Origin: Lepidurus packardi
Taxonomy: Eukaryota; Arthropoda; Branchiopoda; Notostraca; Triopsidae
DNA: 64,000 bases
Assembly: GCA_023053545.1 (NCBI GenBank)
Contig: JAKZAN010000005.1
Coordinates: 2,232,001 to 2,296,000 of the forward strand
Direction of reading: 5' to 3'
Part shown: piece by piece, positions 5,120 to 54,942 of the stretch
Layout of the letters: each line of letters begins with the position of its first letter
Position numbering within the stretch: the first letter of the stretch is position 1
Notes under the pieces: generated by a model
The model's database searches: none
The model's input: the letters and a program-made list of their open reading frames with translations, nothing else
Told to the model about the DNA's origin: nothing
Position numbers and translations under genes: made by a program

Positions 5120-8549
<3,430 letters not shown>

Positions 8550-9046
8550 TTGATGAAGGCCAGGTTGCTCAAGCAACAAACAGTGCCTCCACGGCGACTA
8601 CCAGGATAAATTTTAACACGCCAATGCAGCGTTAACCGATTACACGATTAACATAGTCAAATCAAGGATATAAACGTAGAAATCAATACTTTCCTCTTGA
8701 TTTCCTCGGCCCTGATCTGACTGACAGGACGGCGGCCATTTACTGACGGGAAAAAATTAAGGCGTTGCCAATAGATTCAAAATAAGGTCTTAAGTTTTTC
8801 GCGACAATTAATGCATTATTCTGAATAGAAAAGCTGATTTATAATATTTATAAAACATTCTCTTATTTTTGAAAAGCCTAGTTATAAAAATGACGCGTAT
8901 TTTACTTTGCCACAGTGGTTACCGGTACCAACGCCGCATGGCAATGATTCGGTCTTGGTTCACAATTTGCCTATAATCCAGGAAAAATCTACTATAAGTT
9001 GGTGGAAAAATTAGACTTTGTCGGTTATTGGAACACATTTTGCACA
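8550..9046. promoter_or_regulatory. Divergent promoter region of PKC and mL37
   Basis: The 497 bp between two head-to-head start codons must hold the 5' ends of both genes, or at least their nearest exons. A stretch at 8716-8810 is almost unchanged in the second copy (14843-14935). It contains GGCGGCCATTTACTG, whose reverse strand AAATGGCCGCC resembles a YY1/Pho site, an element frequent at promoters of mitochondrial ribosomal protein genes. The part next to PKC (8561-8690) has no counterpart in copy B, where about 585 bp of different sequence is found. No TATA box is obvious. Confidence 0.5.
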
Positions 9047-11412
9047 ATGAGATTGGGAGTAACTTTACGCAGGCAGCACATTGATCGCTGGTTTAAAGTC
9101 AAATGGGAAGTGGATTCTAATAAAAAGGTGATGAATACCGGTGCCAAGGCAGCTTTGCAAACCAAAGGAGTTATCGTTGCAGATCCACAAGAAATACTGG
9201 ATGTTGAATACAGAGAAAAATTCAAGTACTCTAAGAATTTATTGTATATGAATGTATTAATTATTTTTGCGTCTTATAGGGTACATACGATCCCTGACGG
9301 AGGATTTGATGCAGAAGTCATTCCCCAAATCCCCCCTAGGGACAGAACACATCCCAACTGGCACGATAGGATTTGCTACTCATATACAAATCAAACTAAT
9401 CTTCTGGGAAGATTGGAACAAGCTCAAACTCTTACCCATAGTCTTGTTTTTAAAAACCAGCTACCGCTAAGCGATGTAGATTGCGGAGATCTCGCCTTCG
9501 AGCACAACTTGGCCAAAGAGTATATTGAATTAACCTTTTTTTATTGTACAAAGAGAAAAAAAATTTTTTTACGTTTTTTAGGGCAGTGTTATATTCGAAC
9601 TTATTGGATGCCCATCAAGAAGTCTTACCGAAACGCAAAGATCCCAACAGACTCTTCTGGAACTACGCAAGGGATTATGGAATCCCCAAATCTCGTGCCA
9701 AGTATAACACTTTAAAAACTCGTTGTCTAAGTAATTGCCATCTCTTTTCATAAACAGTCACAACTTGATCCACCAGCTACTGGAAATTTGTGACAAAACA
9801 TTCACCTTCTCAAAACGGCAACCACTTACGCGCCACGTGTTCCCGAGAATAGGTGTCAATGCCAGTTTAAACCATGGTGGGGATTTACTGCAATTTTCAG
9901 TAGAAGCATCGTATCTTCTTACGTCTGAGAAACCGCTCCAACCTATTGCCAATGAGGAACAAGTGTCCAGCTCAGTTCAACAAAACCTCCCAAGCATATA
10001 TCCATTGAAACATACAGTCGCTCTTAAACAAGAAAACATTTACGAGCTTCAAGATTCACTGCGTGCGTTACTTTTGCACCCAGAAAATTGTTTAAATTAA
10101 TTTTTTGTTTTACTTCTTATAGCTTTTGGAGATTCGGAGCGCCACCCTTTCGTCCATACGGCTTTCTTTTTTCAGGAAAAAATTGGCGATGTAGTCATGG
10201 AAGAAGGTGAAGCAGAAGCTCAAGCCTTAACACAATCCTTTGCAGTATGCTTGGCTCAAGCTAGGAAACTTTACGGCGTAAGTTCCTATTATTTAGCTCA
10301 TGAACAGGTTTCTTTCTTACCCTGGTTTGTAAAAATCTAACGACATATTACCTGTTCGTCTTTTTTGTGGAAGGATAAGATTCAACTTAAAGCGTTAACC
10401 CAACATCGACACTTCAAAATGCTTATCCCTCGTCTTTCCTTGTAAGATGTCATAATGTGCACACCGCTAGACCATCTAATATTCACTAATAATGATCATC
10501 TAATATTCTAATATTAATATTTTATAAATCCTTTTATTTGAGTAAAGAAGGATATGAAATAAAGTTCGTCATTTAGCGCTTCTTCTGTAGAAGCGGTTCA
10601 GGAAGTTATTTCTTGGTGAAACAAAACTTCCGGGACACAGAAATTAGGGCAAAGAATAACTCACACTAAGTTGACATATCACTTTGGGAGATGGAACCGT
10701 TCTTTATATTTCTTTATTCTGAAAAGTTCTTTCACAACACTTTTTTCCTTAACCGGCTCAGTATTTTTTATTTTTTTTATTTTTGGAGGGAGCACACAGA
10801 GAGATATTTTTCGTTTGCTTTTGGTCGTTTGAGCTATTTCCTTCGCTCTTCTCTCCCAAACTCCCTCCACCCCTTGCTCCTAAAGTCGTTCTGGATACAA
10901 ATGTCAAGACCAAGCGACCCCTTTCACCCTGCGACTAATTTTTTTTAAAGACATACTCGGCAATGCTATTTTTCACGCATCCAAGTGCCCGTCTCTTAGC
11001 CGGGCTATTGACCTGTAATTTAAAAGCTACTTGTCTCGACCAGGAATTGCAAGAAAAAAGGATGCATGTGGAAGTGTCTTTCAGTCAAGGACGAAAGACA
11101 ATTTAAAGACGACTGGACAGTTTAATGGGCTTAAAATGTTTTGTTTTTATCTAGGATGTGGAGCGTTTGCCAAGTCCGCTGACCCTCAACTGCGTTCATA
11201 CGGACGGGAAGAGTTACTTGTTTGGCACTTTCCAACTCAATAACATAAAGCCAGATGCAAAGGACAAGAATGCGCCGAAAAATCTCTTTTGGGTGCAGGA
11301 TGCCGTTCCGTTGTTCGATGTTTGCGAATTTCAAGGGGGAAGACCAGTATTGGAGGGTTATAATCCTGTTGTTTTCAAGCAATTGTTAAATATGTATGCC
11401 AGTGGCCTGTGA
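9047..11412 (+). CDS. mRpL37: Mitochondrial large-subunit ribosomal protein mL37, complete
   Basis: Six exons join in phase: 9047-9225, 9280-9519, 9582-9701, 9758-10062, 10123-10277 and 11155-11412, giving 418 residues (human mL37 has 423). The N-terminus MRLGVTLRRQHIDRWFKVKW is basic and amphipathic, as expected of a mitochondrial targeting signal. Family landmarks follow: PLQPIANEEQV, a YPLKHTVAL segment, ALTQSFAVCLAQARKLYG, and a C-terminal domain with TDGKSYLFGTFQLNN, NLFWVQD and a FKQLLNMYASGL end. The protein is a structural part of the mitoribosome. A frame open from 8999 begins with TTG, not ATG, so the ATG at 9047 is preferred. It shares a promoter region with the PKC gene on the other strand. 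Confidence 0.92.
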
Positions 11413-12677: not shown

Positions 12678-14328
12678 TCAAATCTCCGCCATTTGTGTGG
12701 TGTTAATTCTACAATTGTTGGCAACATTCTTCTGGCAGCGTTTATGCACATTGAGATTACAAACTGCAAAAAATAAAAAAAAAAATTTATACTTGTTTTT
12801 AAAATAGAAAGTTACAGTGATGTACCTCCGCAATGTAGCCCTTGCTTGGTAAGCCCATAGAGTAGTGAACCACAATGGCCACAAAACGTACACCACTTAT
12901 AATTATGGACCGACAAACGGTGAGGAATATTGACGCTAAAACTCTGCCCGATCGCTTCTTGCGAAGTAACGTCTTCAATACCAGGACATCTCGTAACCAC
13001 AGAATCATGGCAGCGCTTATGAACGACGCAGGCGCACACTAATAAAAATGAGATTTTAAAAGAATAACAATTAAAGTATTAGGTAGTTGACTCTTCTTCC
13101 TTTTTTACCTTGACATTGGTAACCCTGTTTGCCAAGTCCCCAGATGAATTCCCTGCAATGGGAGCAAAAGGTTGGCTGCCTTAAAAAGGTTGCCATAAAC
13201 TCGTGACCATTGACTTGATGCACTCGATGCTGCATTGCCCCACGACGCCGATTTATCCCAGCACTTTCTTTGATCTCGCGCGGTTTGTCCGTGGCCTCGG
13301 AACATGCTTCTGTAATACAAAATGTCCAAGAATGTTTCAAACTTAACGAATCCTCGTTTCTGCTGCAAAACGTGTGGCCACTAACATGAATAAACCGAAA
13401 CCGTCACTTTTAATTTAGCGAGAAGGCAACATCTTTGCGCTTTTTCCCTAAGAAGAAACTTATTTCTAATCTGTGTAACAGTATAACAACGCCCACAGTT
13501 TGAATGCCGAAAGGTCAATCCAAGACTTCCGGTTCACTTAATTTCCGGCTAAAACACATGTCGTGTAAACGAAATAGAAACCGTGAATAAGACATTCTTA
13601 TAATGTATATTCCTAGTTACTTTTTCTATTTTCTTTTTTGGGCGGCAATTAAAGCGGTTTATAGCGTGCCCTTGTCATATTTATTTCTTGCAATTAAGCC
13701 AGGAAACCAAACCACGGATGTGGTTCGGGGCAACAGAGAAAGCAGCAAAAACTTACCTTGAGGAGCCCATTCTAAGTCAATGATAACGTGTATCTTTCCC
13801 TGAGGTTCCAAGTCCACCTATTACAAACAGTAAATTATGACTGCCTAAGCTTTTTCTCCTAAAAATACTACTCAAAAGAGGAAGGATAGGGCTTACCCAA
13901 ATATCTGAAAGCTTCTTGCTCATCAATTCCTCGAACGGAATGCTGCACTTGGCAACACAATCGTCAGGTGGAATAGCAGCATCGTGAAACACGGTCAATC
14001 CCAGCAGAGAAACATTATGGGCTTCATAAACGAAGTTCTCATCCCATGACGGATCAAAGGTCTTCTGTTTGGTACTGGTTCTATGAACGTGGACTTCATC
14101 CACATCTACGAAAACACAGGGATCGATGGGTTGCTCCACTAATTTTTCAGCTAAGCCTACATTATGTCTGCGTTGAATATCTGTAGGCTTGAGGTCGACA
14201 GCCTCGCAAATTTTCAACTTCAAAATGCCACTGAACATATTGCGCACTTTAGTTCGGTATCTGCCCAAGTTCGGATGAAGTTCGGACTTGAGTAGACATC
14301 GACCTTGGGACGCGAGAGGGCTGCTCAT
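12678..14328 (-). CDS. Truncated PKC copy: regulatory half only
   Basis: Five exons match PKC exons 1-5 with the same lengths and usable splice sites: 13897-14238 (342), 13757-13817 (61), 13109-13309 (201), 12826-13038 (213) and a last one ending about 12763. The frame stays open through C2, C1A and C1B, and all zinc-ligand Cys/His residues remain. It ends at a TGA (12678) produced by a one-base deletion just past C1B, about 29 bp from the duplication break, so there is no kinase domain. From the ATG at 14238 the product would be about 301 residues; an in-frame ATG at 14328 adds 30 residues absent from copy A. The pseudosubstrate is altered ([12 protein letters not shown]), and about ten C2 residues differ, including Y to C and F to C. 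It may be an unexpressed relic or a diacylglycerol-binding decoy; the sequence does not decide. Confidence 0.7.
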
Positions 14329-15165
14329 GTTCGATGCTGCGAAGTAGGAGTTTTTATATATTTTACGCTATGCATATTGTAGAGGCGTAGTCTTTTCCAA
14401 AAGAAGGGTGTAGCTTTGTGTGTTATATGACGTTATCTGCTTGCTATTACGATCCGTTGGAGTCGCTGTTGGTTTTGTTCCCTTCCTTATTGGTATTGTT
14501 TTGTTATTTTTTAGTGAATACGTGAATAAGAATATAAACAAGTAGCATCTCCTGTTCGAAGAAAAGGTTGACTAAACTTAGGTTATTTAGACGCAGAATG
14601 TACATTACTTTTGTTTTCATAACAATCGAAGGATAGCGCTAAAGTAGTTCAACTAAAGAGACAATACTTAACGAAACTTCTCTAGAAACCAATTTTCGTA
14701 ATTTACGGAATTTTCCTCATTCAACAGCTAGCAATCTTCGTACTAACAGTTTAACTTGTCGATAATCTATCTTACTATCTATACTAATCTATCTATCTGT
14801 CGATAATCTACGTACAAACCGGTACTTTCCTCTTGATTTCTCGGGCCTGATGTGACTGACAGGACGGCGGCCATTTACTGACGGGAAAAAATTAAGGCGT
14901 TGCCAATAGATTCAAAATAAGGCCTTAAGTTTTTTACGCCAATTGATGCGTTATTCTATATAGAAAAGTTGATTTATAAAATTTAGAAAGCATTCGCTGA
15001 CTTCAGGTAAGCCTAGTTTAAAAATTAAGCGAATTTTATTTAGCTACGGTGGGTACCGGCAGCAACGCCGCGCGATAATGCATTTTTCCTATAATCCAGG
15101 AAATACCTACGATTAGTTTGTGGGAGAAATTAGGCTTTGACGGTTATTGGAACACGTTTTTACAC
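14329..15165. other. Divergent promoter region of copy B, with unique segment
   Basis: From 14239 to about 14822 the sequence has no match in copy A (which has only about 130 bp there). From 14823 the copies align again, including the conserved block with GGCGGCCATTTACTG (14863-14885). The unique part has short CTATCTATCTGTCGATAATC-like repeats near 14756-14812. It either is ancestral promoter lost from copy A or was inserted in copy B. Confidence 0.6.
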
Positions 15166-17430
15166 ATGACACTGGGATTAATTTTACGTTGGCAGCACAT
15201 GATCGCTAGTTTAAAGTCGAATGGGAAATGGATTCAAATAAAAAGGTGATGAACACCGGTGCCAATGCAGCTTTGCAGACCAAGGGAGTTATCGTTGCAG
15301 ATCCACAAGAAATACTGGATGCTGATTACAGAAAAAATTCAAGTACTCACGGATTTTATTGTGTATGAATATATTTACTCTTTTTATATCTTATAGATTC
15401 CATATGATCCCTGATGGATGATTTGGTGCAGATGTCATTCCCCAAATCCCCCTAGGGATAGAACGCATCAAAGCTGGCAACAAAGGATCTGCTACTCATA
15501 CTATATATATGGGTAGATTGGAACAAATGTTATGGGTAGATTGGAACAAGCTCAAACTCTTACCCATAGTCTTATTTCCAAAAACCAGCTACCGCTAAAG
15601 CGATACAGATTGCTTAGATCTCATCTTTGAACACAACTTGGGCAAAGAGTATATTGAATTAACCTTTTTTTATTTTGCAAACACGACGTGAAGCAAATTT
15701 TCTTGACGTTTTTAGGCAGTATTATATTCGAACTTCTTAGATGCCCATCAAGATGTCTTACAGAAACGTAAAGATCCCAACAGACTATTCTGGAACTTCG
15801 TTAGGGATTATGGCATCCCCAAATCTCGTGCCAAGGGTAACACATAAACGACTCGTTGTCTAAGTACTTATCATCCCTTTTCATATAAACAGTCATAACT
15901 TGATCCACCAGTTACTAGAAATTGGTGACAAAACGGCACCACTTACGCTCCACGTGATCCCGAGAATAGGTGTCAATGCGAGTTTAAACCAAGTTTGCTG
16001 CAGTTTTCAGTAGAAGCATTGTATCTTCTTATGTCTAAGAAACCGGTCCAACCTATTGCCAATGAGGAACAAGTGTCCAACTCAGTTCAACGAAACCTCA
16101 AAAGCGTATATCCGTTGAAACATACAGTCGCTCTTAACCAAGAAAACAATTACGAACTTCAAGGTTCACTGCGTAAGTTAATTTTGCACCCAAAAAATTG
16201 TTTAAATTAATTTTTTGTTTTACTTCTTATAGCTTTTGGAGATTCGGAGCGCCACCCTTTCGTCCATACGGCTTTCTTTTTTCAGGAAAAAATTGGCGAT
16301 ACAGTCATGGAAGAAGCTCAAGCCTTAACACAATCCTTTCCAGTATGCTTGGCTCAAGCTAAGAAACTTTACGGCGTAAGTTCCTATTATTTAGCTTATA
16401 AACAGTTTTCTTTCTTACTCTGCTTTGTAAAGCGTTAACCCCAAATCGACACTTAAAAGTGCTTATCCCTTGTAAGATGTCATAATGTACACACCGCTAG
16501 ACCATCTAATATTCCCCTTTATTTGAGTAAAGAAGGATAGAAAATAAAGTTCGTCGTTTAGCGCTTTTTCTGTAGAAGCGGTTCAGGAAGTTATTTCTTG
16601 GTGAAACAAAACTTCCGGGGCTCAGAAATTAGGGCAAAGAATAACTCGCACTAAGTTGACATATCACTTTGGGAGATGAAACTCTGCGTTGAGATGTTTT
16701 TCTTACCGCAAAGCTTCCGTTCTTTATATTTCTTTATTCGGAACAGTTCTTTCACAACACTTTTTTCCTTAACTAGCTCAGTATTTTTTATTTTATTTTT
16801 ATTTTTGGAGGAACCACACAGAGAGGGATTTTTTCGTTTGCTTTTGGTCGTTTTGAGCTATTTCCTTCGCTCTCTTCTCCCAAACTCCCTCCACCCCTTG
16901 CTCCTAAAGTCGTTCTGGATACAAATATCAAGACCAAGCGACCCCTTTCCCCTGAGACTTTTTTTTTCACACTACATACTCGGCAATGCTATTTTTCACG
17001 CATCCAAGTGCCCGTCTGTTAGCCAGGCTATTGATCTGTAATTTAAAAGCTACTTGTCTCGACCAGGAATTGCAAGAAAAAATTATGCATGTGGTCTTTC
17101 AGTCAAGGAAGAAAGACAATTTAAAGACGACTGGACAGTTTAATGGGCTTAAAATGTTTTGTTTTCATCTAGGATGTGGAGCGTTTGCCAAGTCCGCTGA
17201 CCCTCAACTGCGTTCACACGGATGGGAAGAGTTACTTGTTTGGCACTTTCCAACTCAATAACATAAAGCCAGATGCAAAGGACAAGAATGCGCCGGAAAA
17301 TCTCTTTTGGGTGCAGGATGCCGTTCCGTTGTTTGATGTTTGCGAATTTCAAGGAGGAAGACCAGTATTGGAAGGTTATAATCCAGTTGTTTTCAAGCAA
17401 TTGTTAAATATGTATGCCAGTGGCCTGTGA
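15166..17430 (+). pseudogene. mL37 copy B, broken in its 5' half
   Basis: All six exons of mL37 can be aligned. Lesions: a one-base deletion near 15200 shifts the frame and leads to a TGA at about 15247; there is an in-frame TGA at 15419-15421; an inserted repeat of GGGTAGATTGGAACAA lies near 15509-15550; and a deletion near 15990 brings a TAG into frame at about 16010. The last two exons are open. The final exon (17173-17430) differs from copy A at only about eight positions, one of which changes a residue (K to E). The AATAAA after the stop is kept. A full mitoribosomal protein cannot be made from this copy. Confidence 0.9.
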
Positions 17431-48324: not shown

Positions 48325-51300
48325 TCACACGAAAAATTCAAACTTACTTGCCAGCTGGTATTCGATTTCCGCGTTATTATACATTTCAATGTTCTAAAAG
48401 ATGTATAAGTATGGTTAGTTTAAACGCTAACCAATATATCCCTTAATAGTAAAAAAAAAAAAATACCAGTTGAATATCCTTAGAAAGGTCTTCGAGTTGC
48501 TTCTCATGGGCCTTCTGCAGCTTTTCCTTCTCCTTAGCTTGTCGCATCGCAGTCGTTTTGCGTTCTTCAATAAATTTTTTGGTGTTATTTTGATTCTTTT
48601 CCCTCAGCCGTCGTTCTTTCTCGGCCTTGTTTCGCAAAGTCTTGTCGTTCGTCACTTCTTTCGCGGTTTCGACAGCCACACGAGCTTGCTTAGCTTTCAA
48701 CTCCTTGTTTTCCCTGTAAGAATCAGTCCACGATGCGCAATGATCTTAAAATTGGCAGGAAAGTCAGACTTATTACCTTTCATTCTTAACGTCGAGTTGC
48801 TTCAATTGATTGGCTTGGGCAGCCACCATTAGTGTTTTGAGAATGTCTTGCTGAGCCTCCAGCTGTTCTTTCAACAATTGCCACTCTTCTCGCAAATGAC
48901 GACCAACCAATTCGGACCATTCCTGTGTCTGCTCTGCCACCACAGTTTTTACAGCTGCATCATTGACGAGTTCTTCCTTCCTGGAAACGAGATTGGAACA
49001 TAAGTTTGCGGAGTGGAAAGGAAAAAAGGGTACTCTGGAGTATAGAGCGGCCAATAAATAGATAATAGCGGAAGCTATGGTATACTCACTTCTTTCCTTT
49101 AATTAACCGCTCAATAGTAGCCAACTGGGACTTTTGCACTGCCAGTTTCTCTTTCTGCTGACGTTTGCGCATCACATCCATATCTTTCTGGTGCTTCTTG
49201 GTCGCTTTGCCGAATCCCTTATCACCACGCAAGGTCTCCAACGTGACAGGTTCAAATTTAAGCTCCTCTACATTATTTAGTTTAAAAGCTTTCGATCGGA
49301 ATCCAGAAAATGCGTACCTCGTTTTTCTTCATCCCCAGTTGAACCCTTGGTTCGTCCTCCCCCTGCCTTGGAAGCATCAGATTCTTCAATTCCAATCTGT
49401 TTCATCTGCTCGTTCCTCTTCTCCTGCATATTCATGAAAGCGCGAGGATCCGACAGTGCATCCATCAAACCTTATAAATCCCAATAAATTATTGAACCAC
49501 ACACGTCTCTTGTCTGCTGGAGATTTTCTTTCTTTGGTCTATACCTCCTAAACCATCGGGGACATAAATCTTGAGTTCAATGTTGCAGAAGAGCATAGGT
49601 AAGCTCATTGGGAAGTTGGCTTCCGTCCTTAAGGAAATATGGCGATAACCAGCTTGCAAACCGTCTAATGGTAGGATTCGCTGCCCTAGCAACTTTCCGT
49701 TTTCGTCGTAAACGCCAAACCGTAGCACTGCCAAATCCGGTAATACGACCTAATTTACGGCACCATATAACTCCCGCAATTTAGCCAACAGACGTAGGAG
49801 ATAAAAAGAAAATGTATATACATGTATACCTTGCGGAAAAGAAAAGGCTCTTCATTATACACAGGATTCAAGCCGTTTGCCGCTACTAGACGAGTGCGGA
49901 ATTCTTTACGAATGGTGTCCGTGGGTAGGCCGTACATATCAACTTCGACGTAGGTTCCTACCTTCTTATCAGACAAAAACTGCCCAGCAATCACCTGCAT
50001 AAAAGTTTCTTTTATTTAAAAGTAACGCAAAGTCGGAATACAAATGTCCGTCTCAATAATATAATAACTTAAAAAATAGGTTGATTTATTACTGTTTACC
50101 TGTACGGTGCACTGCGCAGCAATAACTCCATCTACGGGCGATTCTGCGAAAGGATCGAAACTCCGATCCGGTCGCCGCATGAAGTCTGGTTTCAACAAAT
50201 ACCCGCAATTGCCATTGTACTCGAACTTGCCTTGGTTCAACTGGAAGGGCAAATCAGGCGTTTGGAAGTTCAAGGATACCATCTGACAACCAGCATTCCA
50301 AAACACCTACGGACATTACGAAACGTATTACGAAAACCATCCCAACAAAAGAAAAAAAAAGTAAGGAGTATCATCTTGCTTGAGGCATGTAATTTGACGA
50401 ATCAGCTCGAGTTCCTTTGGGGTAGATACGGCTCATTTGGCGTTTGTTGTAGTTTACGAATTCGACCGACGAGGTTTTGAGGTAATTTAAGCCCGTGGTT
50501 TCCGCAAAGGAAGACATGTTGTGATGGATGTTTTTCTCTACCCCAAACCCAACATATAAAACAATTAGCTAGGTTGAAGAGAAAGCAAACGGTGAAGGTC
50601 TAAAAGCCAATTCTGTGCGCAAACCAAAACGAAAAATAAAATAAAAATAACAACTTCAGGCAACATGCCACAGAACTCACTTTCAGCCTGTTCAAAGCTC
50701 TGGAACTTGATGGGTTGGGCATAATTAATCATGGAAGAAAGCCAAGGATGCACACTAGTAGTTGACCCAGTATATTGAATCGGGGGTGCCTCCCCATCTG
50801 CGTTCGCAGCAGAACCGGCCGCAGCAACAGCGGCTGCAGCAGCTGCTTCTTCTTCCGCCTAGGACACGTGTTGCCAGCCAGCAATCAAGAACACATGCAT
50901 CATAAGAAAAACAGAACAAAAAGGGAAGGACAGAAGTATGAAAATTCATTATTATGCGTGTTAAAAAGGTCATGCTCATGCCGGGGAGGTGAAACATTTA
51001 GCACAAAAGAAATCATTCTAACAGCAATATCCGTGCTTAGAGTATTGACGTTGATGTATTACCCCCGGCCGCTTCAAAGCCCTGGAATTTGACGGGTTCT
51101 GCATAGTTGACGAGACTAGATAACCAAGGGTGAACTTGATTGGTTCCACCTTTATATTCGTACAACTGAAACACTTTCTCGTCAAAGCTCAAGGAGCGCG
51201 GCTCAAGAGTAACCGAATCTAGTTCCTACAAGTAAGAACAAGTATACTCCATCAAACAGTTTGCTCTCGCCCACAACTTTCGTGTTCAATGGTCCTTGAC

Positions 51301-54300
51301 ATGATAGGACAAAGGAGCATATGGTAATACCAAGAACAAAAAATTAAAGGGAAATGGTGATTCGAAGAAAAGTAACCTTAAGCTTGCCTTTTTCTCTTCG
51401 GGAATCGTTGCTGCTGGTGCTGACGCGTCTTCCTTCTCCTCGTCGTCTGTAATAACAAACTGGCCTTGACGGAATAACTCCAATTCCTGTTTTTCCACAT
51501 CGGGTTTCAGACGCTTATTCTTAATCAGAATCTTTCGTTTTAATGAACTGGGAGCTGGCAAACACACACCCGGATCCAACTGCAAGACCAAGAAGAACAG
51601 AGTACTCAACCTCAGGTTAATCCCCAAGGGAAGTAAAGGGGTTGAAAGGTTCTTACCGGAGAATCAGGCAACGGCTCTTTCAAGAGCAAATCTCCGAAAA
51701 TTTCGTCGCAGTACTTGGCCAACTTGTATTGCTGCGCTTTGCAGCAATGGTTTTCAAAAGATAGAATTATTGGATAGTCTGACGTCACGAAGGCGCAATC
51801 CCGAATGGCGTATATAACATCCTAGAAATGTTTAAGTCAATTACACGGTACTTTAATGTGATGCATCCTTACTTTGAATAAAATTTCTGTACACATAGCT
51901 TTACCATGGGTAATGATCGGTTCCTCATCGCTGCCTTTTCCGTCCCAACAATCCAGCTCAACGCATCTAAAAAGGGAACGAAACGTTATCCAGAAAAAGA
52001 ATTCCAAGGAAAACGAGAAAGGAATAATCCCTTGGTTACATGTTACCTGCAGCCCGCCAGCAGCGTTTGCCGGTACATTTCCACGGAAGATTTTCCACCA
52101 AACTGTCTCCCGCTAAGATACGTGTTGTGAGATGAGTTAATGTAGTAATGCGATAACGGTTGGTCCATATCCATGTAAGTATCCAAGTTTTCCAACCAAA
52201 CGGGCGCGTTGTCGTCGGACATCAAATAACGAATAAACCCGTCTTTGCTTAGACGACCTAAGAAGAAAAAAAAGTCCATAACAAGGGTTACGCCCCTCCA
52301 ACAAAGCAACTTACGATGGACTTTGTTTTCTTTGTCTTGTTCGTAGGTTTCTATGATTTCCGTAGCGCGCTTTTCGTTATATAACGGGTACAGAATCTCG
52401 TTGAGCCTCGGGTCACGCTGCTTGTCGTTTAGGAAATCAATAAAGGCGTACAAGTTTATCATATCCGACTTTCCTTTCGTGCTAAAAAGAAAAGAAAAAA
52501 TACGCAACATAAAAAGAAGCCACGTAAACACCTCGGAATGGCGCTTTCGTACGCTTACATTGACTGGAAAAGCTCTTCGATATCATTCCGGGGGCAAATT
52601 TTATGGTACAGTGTATAAAACTTGTCGTACGTAAATGCCTCTTTTTCTATGGCATCGCCCTAAAATTTGGACACACATCTATAGCTCGTCAGAAGTTTCG
52701 ATAGTAAAAGTATAAAAAAATTTAGAATTAGAAAGACAAACCTTGCCACTTGGTAATTCCAAATCAGCCAAACACTGGTAAACTAGTTTTTCGGTTTTGC
52801 CGGATGCGAAGGTACGGGCGATGACTTTGACAGGAACTTTGCCACTTACGTCTACTTGAAAGCATAATCTCATCCAACTGGAAGAATTACACAGCGTTAG
52901 TAAAGTTCCGGAATACTGCCCCCCCCCCTGTTTGCTCGGGAAGTTTAAGCAGAGGGCTAAAACAAGACAACGCAACACTGGCATGCATTAGATATGGGAT
53001 AGTAGCAAAGGCAAACAATTAGCTAGCGTTTGAGATGAACGAGAAATGTTAATTGAAACAACTGACATCAGCTCGTTCCCCAAATCATTGAAAATTAAAC
53101 TAAACTTTCAGCTAAAACTAGAAAGCTGGGAAAGAGTGGTGTGTTTCTAAACTTACTCCGAAACTTTCCGACAAATGATAATCATTAATTGAACATACAA
53201 AGGTTAACAGAAATTCCCAAGTGGTAAAAAAAACTACTAAACAAGCTAAGAGTTAACCCTTTGGGAGGAGTATTATACTTTCTGGGGGAAATCATTACAC
53301 GTACTGTTTCATGAGAATAGTGGAAGCACAGACATTGTTAATCTTGTTGTTGTTTGTAATAGCTCGCATGCCTTTTTGCCAGGTCTGAAAGGAAAAAAGC
53401 CACAAATCACCTCGTGTGAGTCTTTAGCATGCACTTCTCACTCATAAGACACTCAACCCGGATTGCCTTCGAAATAAAACTCCACCAATCACACAAGAGT
53501 GTCCATTGATCCCCAGAGTGTTGTTGCAAACACACACAACGGACAAAAAAAGAAAGGCTGATGATTCAAGACAGCGCAAAAGGTACAGTAAAGTGTAGTT
53601 CTTTTGGAACTGACAAGCGAAAACTTACTGTTTTAGCAAACAAGTATTGGGACATATGTTATTGGCTTTGATATTATGCGTAGTGGTTCGCAAGCCTTCC
53701 AGCCAAGCCTAGAAAAATCCCATCCCGTGAGATAAAACGTCGCTTCCATTAAAAAGAAAACCGAAAATGAAATCCCGCTAAGCTTTTGCTCCACATCAGA
53801 ATTTGGTGCACGTAAAAAAAGAAAATTAGCCGGTCAAAGAAAACACAAGAAAAAGAAAGAGTTGTAAACAACGTACTTTGGCATCTTCAGCAGTGGTACA
53901 TATGACGTGGAGATAATTAATGTTGACCATATCTAAGCCACTACAGATGGTGAGCGACTTTTCCTCCAAATCTTGTCCATGTTTGGCTACTAATTGGTTG
54001 AGTAAACGTGTATCCTACAGATAAGCAAGAAAAAAAGGAAAAAAGGAAGGACTTTAACAAGATCAACAGGGAGTAATTGCAGCTGGAGGCAATGAAAAAG
54101 AGCAAATCCGGTTCATACCTTAGGTAGACCTCCAGCTCGAATATCGCTGACTTGACTGAGTTCCAAGACATCTCCATCCTTAAAACAATAAGAAAAATTC
54201 CCGGTTATTAGGGTCATTAACACAATTACGGAAAGTAAGAGTTAGAAAATTGTTGTTTGTTACCCGAGCTTCGCTTTTCCAGTGGATGAAAAATCCGTAT

Positions 54301-54942
54301 TCGTCTACTTGGAAGAAACAGGACGGCTCCTGATCAAACGTGTCTTTCTCCTATGAACAAAAATAGCATTCCACATGAGTGGGGAAACTTTGCAACCACA
54401 CAGGCCAAAAACTATCCCAAGACAACAACACTTCTTATGTATTGTTGACATTTCCGGGAAACGGACCAAATAAAAAGCTCCCGACTACAGATTTACGAGA
54501 ATCGCATTCCAGGGATGTTTAGAGCAATTATCACAAGCAAACAGCGAAATGCAGGCTAGGAATAGCAAATTTTTATTTTTAATGGGCGCTCTAGGTATGG
54601 GAGAAAAGGTTCCTGGAGAAGCTAAAGCAAACTCCAGGAACATATACCGTGTCCTAATCAATACGCCATGCTTCTATAAAAGCTTTTCTGTCTCGGGGTC
54701 CTCTCGCGGAAGTCATATAGCACGCATACAGTGTCTGTCTCTAGGTAGATGGTAACTTATGCTAAAACAGTGCCAAGTTTATAGAAATTTGATTTGCCCA
54801 CCTACAAGACTAAGTAAAGCAACCTGTATTTGGCCCCAAGTGTCAATGTTCCACTTACTTCAGTCCACTTATCAAAGCTGCATCCTTGCAGCAAAGGTTC
54901 CGGTACCGGAATTCGCCAGTTAAAGTCGAATTTTTTGGTCAT
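48325..54942 (-). CDS. norpA: norpA-type phospholipase C beta (PLC beta 4 class)
   Basis: Twenty-two coding positions join in phase from the ATG at 54942 to a stop at 48325, giving 1092 residues (1087 with the other exon 13), against 1095 for fly norpA. Order: PH region starting [20 protein letters not shown] hands; X domain with [11 protein letters not shown] and [11 protein letters not shown] (catalytic His residues); X-Y linker; Y domain with [20 protein letters not shown] and [16 protein letters not shown]2 with [19 protein letters not shown]; then a long charged coiled coil and a C-terminal EFFV. The enzyme cleaves PIP2 to IP3 and diacylglycerol downstream of Gq and is the phototransduction PLC in flies. 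Exon position 5 has two alternatives, as does position 13. Two introns use GC donors. A strong GTAAGT inside the last exon is ignored because the read-through C-terminus matches the family. Confidence 0.95.
50681..50858 (-). other. norpA exon 13, variant D (Ala-rich, norpA-like)
   Basis: 178 bp, phase 0 to phase 1. It encodes an acidic/Ala-rich start ([15 protein letters not shown]) and [19 protein letters not shown], closely like the fly norpA linker. The exon begins after CCTAG and ends at GAAA-GTGAGT. It alternates with 51063-51225. Confidence 0.8.
51063..51225 (-). other. norpA exon 13, variant C
   Basis: 163 bp, phase 0 to phase 1. It encodes a different start ([19 protein letters not shown]) and the equivalent core [20 protein letters not shown]. 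It is usable only in place of variant D: both end in phase 1 and duplicate the same start of the Y domain. The upstream exon (51388-51579) must use the GC donor to reach either one in frame. Confidence 0.75.
53305..53384 (-). other. norpA exon 5, variant A
   Basis: 80 bp, phase 0 to phase 2, donor GTACGTG, acceptor TTTCAG. It encodes [20 protein letters not shown] followed by a short end that joins HWMRL of the next exon. It is equivalent in position to the alternative exon 4 of fly norpA. It alternates with 53629-53708. Confidence 0.85.
53629..53708 (-). other. norpA exon 5, variant B
   Basis: 80 bp, same phases as variant A, donor GTAAGTTTT, acceptor ending CCTAG. It encodes [20 protein letters not shown] and a short end. 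It shares about half its residues with variant A. Using both would shift the frame (160 bp), so they must be mutually exclusive. Confidence 0.85.

Follow-up and report, generated by a model that had tools for sequence, protein, structure and literature searches.

A candidate pair of mutually exclusive exons at the X-Y linker of a norpA-type phospholipase C-beta gene in Lepidurus packardi

Can one gene carry two interchangeable versions of the autoinhibitory linker of phospholipase C-beta (PLC-beta)? The question is raised by a stretch of 64,000 nucleotides of the branchiopod Lepidurus packardi (contig JAKZAN010000005.1 of assembly GCA_023053545.1, positions 2,232,001 to 2,296,000; hereafter the window, in whose numbering positions are given unless a locus elsewhere is named). 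A first-pass annotation had placed two exons, here 13C and 13D (C and D for short), in tandem on the minus strand of a PLC-beta gene in this window, and had proposed that they replace one another in the linker between the X and Y domains. We take this gene to be of the norpA type, a kind of signalling enzyme familiar from vision in flies, following the label given in that annotation. Both the exon anatomy and the divergence of the two exons give good support to an exclusive pair at the X-Y linker: C and D are a real, old exon pair and, judged by their sequences, are very probably used one at a time. We put the probability of exclusive use in transcripts at roughly 0.7.

Anatomy and reading frames of exons 13C and 13D

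The modelled part of the gene and the exons and introns around the pair are as follows.

49090..54942 (-): PLC-beta gene as far as modelled, exons 1-19 (gene model and Pfam)
51388..51579 (-): exon 12, shared upstream exon, 64 residues, linker side of the X domain, phase 0-0, ending in ...EEKK (open frame)
51226..51387 (-): intron 12-C, 162 nt, GC-AG
51063..51225 (-): exon 13C, 163 bp, phase 0 to 1, 54 complete codons, donor GGG/gtaata
50859..51062 (-): intron C-D, 204 nt (the gene's shortest introns, of 50, 51 and 57 nt, are about a quarter as long)
50681..50858 (-): exon 13D, 178 bp, phase 0 to 1, 59 complete codons, donor AAA/gtgagt
50538..50680 (-): intron D-14, 143 nt
50380..50537 (-): exon 14, shared downstream exon, Y domain, starting in phase 1, GC donor CAA/gcaaga

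The gene has the domain order of a PLC-beta, namely PH, EF-hands, X, Y and C2. Pfam searches of the translated gene model returned PH_14 (residues 13-140), PLCB1-4-like EF-hand (147-217), EF-hand_like (212-301), PI-PLC-X (315-464), PI-PLC-Y (540-654) and C2 (677-769). Where a PLC-beta carries a long C-terminal coiled region, the 3' exons, only partly modelled, are charged when inspected by eye, and the Pfam run gave no C-terminal family match; further 3' exons, recognised by eye at about 48.35-48.98 kb, lie outside the model. By exon lengths, residue 505 is the end of exon 12, and exon 13C then spans 34 residues ahead of the Pfam Y domain plus the first 20 residues of that domain.

Exons C (51225-51063) and D (50858-50681) lie at the places claimed for them, and each has an AG acceptor, a GT donor and an open frame and contains, as the annotation had stated, the motif VHPWLSS followed by NYA.P.KF. 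They sit between the same two exons, and their lengths differ by five residues or less. The claim that both run from phase 0 to phase 1 holds provided that exon 12 uses the donor AAG/GCAAGC, with the exon ending at 51388 and a GC-AG intron following; in-phase joining of exon 12 to either C or D needs this donor, which was the only in-phase one found for exon 12. It is newly recognised here, being absent from the earlier annotation. A nearby GT donor, AAG/GTTACT, was rejected, as it is out of frame and leads to stops with either C or D.

The consequences of joining are clear-cut. Inclusion of C and D together brings a stop at codon 153 counted from the start of exon 12, within D, and the skipping of both brings one at codon 81; therefore only C alone or D alone gives the full protein. 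At a minimum, the reading frame would enforce exclusivity, messages with both exons or neither ending prematurely and presumably being degraded. A survey of exclusive exons in humans found such frame incompatibility in 20 of 28 orthologous genes with validated pairs (PMC5740500).

In their 3' parts the two exons share 20 of 31 residues (BLASTP E value 1.8e-16 in a two-sequence comparison) and, over the same 31 codons, 62 of 93 nucleotides. Partners of every modelled exon were sought by WebScipio-like rules after PMC3228551 (length within 20 residues, a shared phase, freedom from stops and a score of 15% of the self score or more) in the introns flanking the 21 modelled exons, downstream only for exon 1 and upstream only for exon 19. 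Partners were found for 5A/5B and 13C/13D and for no other of the 21 exons, and the introns resampled by a first-order Markov model, 20 for each of the 21 exons, yielded none. The global score of C against D is 0.335 and 0.321 of the self scores, compared with a threshold of 0.15. Length, frame, splice sites, homology and unproductive joint inclusion or skipping are all those of an exclusive pair. Like the exclusive exons defined by WebScipio, C and D are similar in length, identical in phases, matched in splice sites, homologous and in tandem order; unlike them, their homology is limited to the 31 residues of the 3' part (PMC3228551). Such features are rare among the non-exclusive exons of the fly X chromosome, where 90 of 16180, in six of 1705 genes, have them (PMC3228551).

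How might the splicing machinery choose between the two? Two of the 21 modelled donors are GC donors, those of exon 12 (51385-51390) and exon 14 (50377-50382), both on the minus strand; the former feeds the exclusive pair, and the latter stands one exon past it. By a donor matrix built from the gene itself, the exon 12 donor is the best of the 21 (7.41) and that of C the worst (-1.60), scores that are rough, the matrix resting on 18 or 19 GT donors of this single gene with the first two intron bases omitted. Exons 9 and 10 of let-2 in Caenorhabditis elegans are mutually exclusive. A weak GC donor in intron 10 of that gene is needed for its developmental alternative splicing (Farrer 2002, via PMC7242645), and the same source gives let-2 as an example of GC-AG introns, which are reported to have weaker donors and more alternative splicing. 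The present locus resembles let-2 in that a GC-AG intron accompanies its alternative exons and differs from it in that the GC donor is that of exon 12, which precedes C and is common to both choices. This GC donor, along with the weak one of exon C, would be a candidate control point for the choice, which may be made by tissue.

Several observations on splicing weigh against exclusive use. The donor of C is, as said, the weakest of the 21, and neither acceptor tract stands out or differs much from the other, the pyrimidine fractions being 0.59 for C and 0.55 for D. Among the three introns of the cluster, competing base pairing does not exceed that of resampled introns: the best duplexes between introns have z values of -0.15, 0.48 and 0.68, and 93, 141 and 154 of 200 resampled introns gave equally strong ones, in a crude, whole-intron test that short docking sites could escape when no relatives are compared. 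Two other mechanisms of exclusion were considered and set aside. Steric exclusion is unlikely, as the gap between C and D is 204 nt and the gene has introns of about a quarter of that length (the 751 nt from exon 5A to exon 6 span exon 5B, and are thus not one intron). Incompatibility of U12- and U2-type splice sites was rejected, the three cluster introns being free of U12-type signals.

The autoinhibitory plug and the possible effect of an exchange

What would an exchange of C for D alter in the enzyme? Autoinhibition by the X-Y linker, on which the earlier annotation had relied, is documented for PLC-beta3 (PMC10691244). A single short plug holds the activity of PLC-beta down: the basal Vmax of PLC-beta3 rises about 700-fold when T575-V584 is deleted and about 2300-fold when the whole linker is, and Gq, which stimulates the intact enzyme about 20-fold, then does so about two-fold or less (PMC10691244). 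The exons occupy the same place in the protein as the PLC-beta3 linker, and their 3' parts align with the start of its Y domain. In phmmer comparisons with the PLC-beta3 chain 8uqn_B (1234 residues), the match begins at residue 588 for the C form and at residue 585 for the D form. Ungapped extension of these matches places T575-V584 on ten-residue segments of C and D, which agree at three of ten positions; from VHPWLSS onward the two agree at 17 of 23. By position, therefore, the pair appears to encompass the stretch that acts as the active-site plug of human PLC-beta3, and so, outside the alanine-rich or aromatic stretch, C and D would differ most at the point of contact between brake and active site in a relative. 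Against this stands the nature of the mapping, which is ungapped and positional only: this gene and PLC-beta3 are unlike there, and the residues are not conserved.

The upstream linker had been described as unrelated between the two exons. Their 5' halves are indeed unlike, but the alignable part begins eight residues before VHPWLSS. Of the contrast drawn between an acidic and hydrophobic C and an alanine-rich D, the hydrophobic side stands, C being the more hydrophobic and aromatic exon upstream of VHPWLSS (ten of 30 residues are ILVMFWY, against three of 35 in D), as does the richness of D in alanine there; net charge does not set C apart as acidic, there being six acidic and three basic residues before VHPWLSS in C (net -3) and five acidic and no basic residues in D (net -5). 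The upstream linker is exchanged as proposed, but not alone, because the segment equivalent to the plug and the first 20 residues of the Pfam Y domain are swapped with it.

We propose that an old tandem exon duplication in this norpA-type gene gave rise to 13C and 13D, that these would be spliced one at a time, and that the exchange would replace the end of the X-Y linker, with the plug-equivalent stretch in it, and the first residues of the Y domain. The two forms should then differ in the tightness of the plug at rest and in the ease of its release by Gq. A regulatory consequence of the swap is plausible; the specific proposal that the C and D forms plug the active site differently is tentative, and we rate it at somewhat less than even odds.

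Closest to it comes the possibility that the pair is genuine and that both plugs work alike, the choice being neutral or acting through abundance or through partners bound by the alanine-rich or aromatic stretch. This alternative overlaps our proposal, since it accepts the pair and denies only the effect on the plug. X-Y linkers are known to vary freely between PLCs, and the agreement from VHPWLSS onward fits with two plugs that are equivalent. The fits to the Pfam Y domain are likewise similar: 143.7 bits for exons C-14-15, 144.0 bits for 12-D-14-15 and 139.8 bits for the whole C isoform. On the other hand, two copies kept at high synonymous divergence suggest distinct roles, and the low agreement at the plug-equivalent positions speaks for different plugs. 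We consider equivalence of the plugs rather unlikely, and less so than any of the alternatives taken up in the next section.

If the two forms do differ in plugging, splicing can tune a catalytic brake while the catalytic residues and the G-protein site remain untouched, and natural alternative plugs within one gene would provide a ready-made test of how the plug sequence relates to resting noise and to gain through Gq. A further step, which we regard as speculative and on balance improbable, is that splicing picks between a 'leaky, fast' and a 'tight, quiet' PLC of the phototransduction type, that the exon 5 pair extends these to four forms, each suited to particular cell types or light regimes, and that the shared GC donor is the point of control.

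We recognised no described exclusive pair at the X-Y linker of a PLC-beta among the open-access papers searched; automated annotation of public genomes may list both exons. The norpA gene of Drosophila reportedly has an alternative exon pair, 4 and 4A, which distinguishes subtypes I and II. The present pair is like that one in being exclusive and in the same kind of gene, and unlike it in lying in the catalytic linker, the fly pair being placed elsewhere in the protein. Two norpA isoforms are encoded by the fly genome (PMC3772025). Variants of PLC-beta1 and PLC-beta2 differ at the C terminus, and those of PLC-beta4 involve an internal segment and exons whose place is not given, so that a linker variant is possible among them (PMC12195575).

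Constraint on exon 13C

Could C be a defunct or cryptic copy of D, never spliced into a functional mRNA? Its donor, the weakest of the gene, would suit such a relic, and a run of 54 codons with the composition of the introns stays open by chance with p of about 0.06, so that an open frame in itself says little for function. The divergence of the two exons argues the other way. Over the 31 aligned codons, the non-synonymous (dN) and synonymous (dS) divergences are 0.31 and 1.43 by the method of Nei and Gojobori, giving a dN/dS ratio of about 0.22; ten codons are identical, ten differ synonymously and 11 non-synonymously, and the differences at codon positions 1, 2 and 3 number 11, 6 and 14. The fit of C to the Pfam Y domain, moreover, equals that of D. 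In comparisons with PLC-beta chains, the top PLC-beta3 scores are 209.4 for the C form and 209.5 for the D form, the PLC-beta2 chain 2fju_B favours C (205.2 vs 201.4), and the invertebrate PLC-beta chain 3qr0_A favours D (203.1 vs 197.2).

Simulations also argue against C as an unconstrained relic. When C was left unconstrained and allowed to diverge to the same nucleotide identity, 12 to 14 identical residues remained on average. Four settings were simulated 2000 times each, and no run reached the observed 20 identities with no stop in C; with stops ignored, one run in 2000 reached 20 identities in two of the four settings. A simpler null simulation gave 0 of 5000. Partial relaxation is another matter: with omega at 0.5 for C and 0.1 for D, 20 identities were reached in 2.3% of the simulated runs, and with omega at 0.3 for C and 0.1 for D in 10%. 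When both exons were given the same omega, the proportion was 10% at 0.2 and 46% at 0.1. The stretch is short, D was treated as ancestral and mutation was modelled simply; therefore these simulations oppose the absence of constraint on C, and not weak constraint. The constraint that they detect concerns the alignable part, the 5' halves lying outside the test. Taken with the divergence, they make a dead C improbable.

Somewhat less probable still is a regulatory role for C as a 'poison' exon, whose inclusion together with D would shift the frame and lower the amount of message. The stop that joint inclusion places inside D is what such an exon would require. C alone, however, joins exon 14 in frame, and a poison exon has no need of constraint at the protein level.

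The remaining alternative, that C or D is an allele or a misplaced copy put in tandem by the assembly, found no support and can be dismissed as negligible in view of a nucleotide identity (62 of 93) far below allelic levels, the unlike 5' halves, the 1801-base stretch around the pair, which has one match in the assembly, namely itself, and the protein of exon C, which in the assembly matches only itself and D (E up to 1). Relatives of C were also sought in viral and prokaryotic contig collections, where ten and 111 stretches fitted the pattern and none was confirmed, a result that is uninformative on arthropods.

The exon 5 pair, other loci and neighbouring frames

The other candidate exclusive pair of the gene, present in both the model and the scan, lies at the end of the PH domain.

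53629..53708 (-): exon 5A, 80 bp
53305..53384 (-): exon 5B, 80 bp

Synonymous divergence between 5A and 5B (53305-53708, minus strand) is too high to be estimated. The pair is likely to be the counterpart of the fly norpA pair. As the first-pass annotation had proposed, the two pairs allow four isoforms: all combinations of 5A or 5B with 13C or 13D are frame-compatible and remain open to exon 19.

A second PLC-beta-like gene of the assembly, L003 (C1:11130736, 3225 bases), has a single exon at the place of the linker. This exon matches only itself within the L003 locus (E up to 10), C and D each match it once, and the intron that follows it is, as judged by eye, at the corresponding place and in the corresponding phase. 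Of the two PLC-beta genes examined, then, one has the duplication and L003, with its one linker exon, does not show it; four other Y-domain matches of the assembly were compared in part. Y-domain matches with a stop in the matched frame are present on two small contigs, L009 (C135, 2903-3052) and L010 (C76, 6768-6917). Both show a break at about the same profile position as in the norpA-type gene, and they are 40% and 36% identical, respectively, to exon 14 over 50 columns. Of 266 candidate matches to the cuticle domain PF00379, 150 were scored, and these suggest arthropod DNA.

Two other regions of the window, about 7100-11400 and 12700-17430, contain open frames that closely resemble one another and recur some 5.7-6.1 kb apart. 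Among the open reading frames listed, a kinase-like frame was seen by eye beside the first of the recurring copies only. The recurring frames comprise protein kinase C-like pieces with C1-like and C2-like stretches on the minus strand and other frames on the plus strand, suggesting a tandem duplication.

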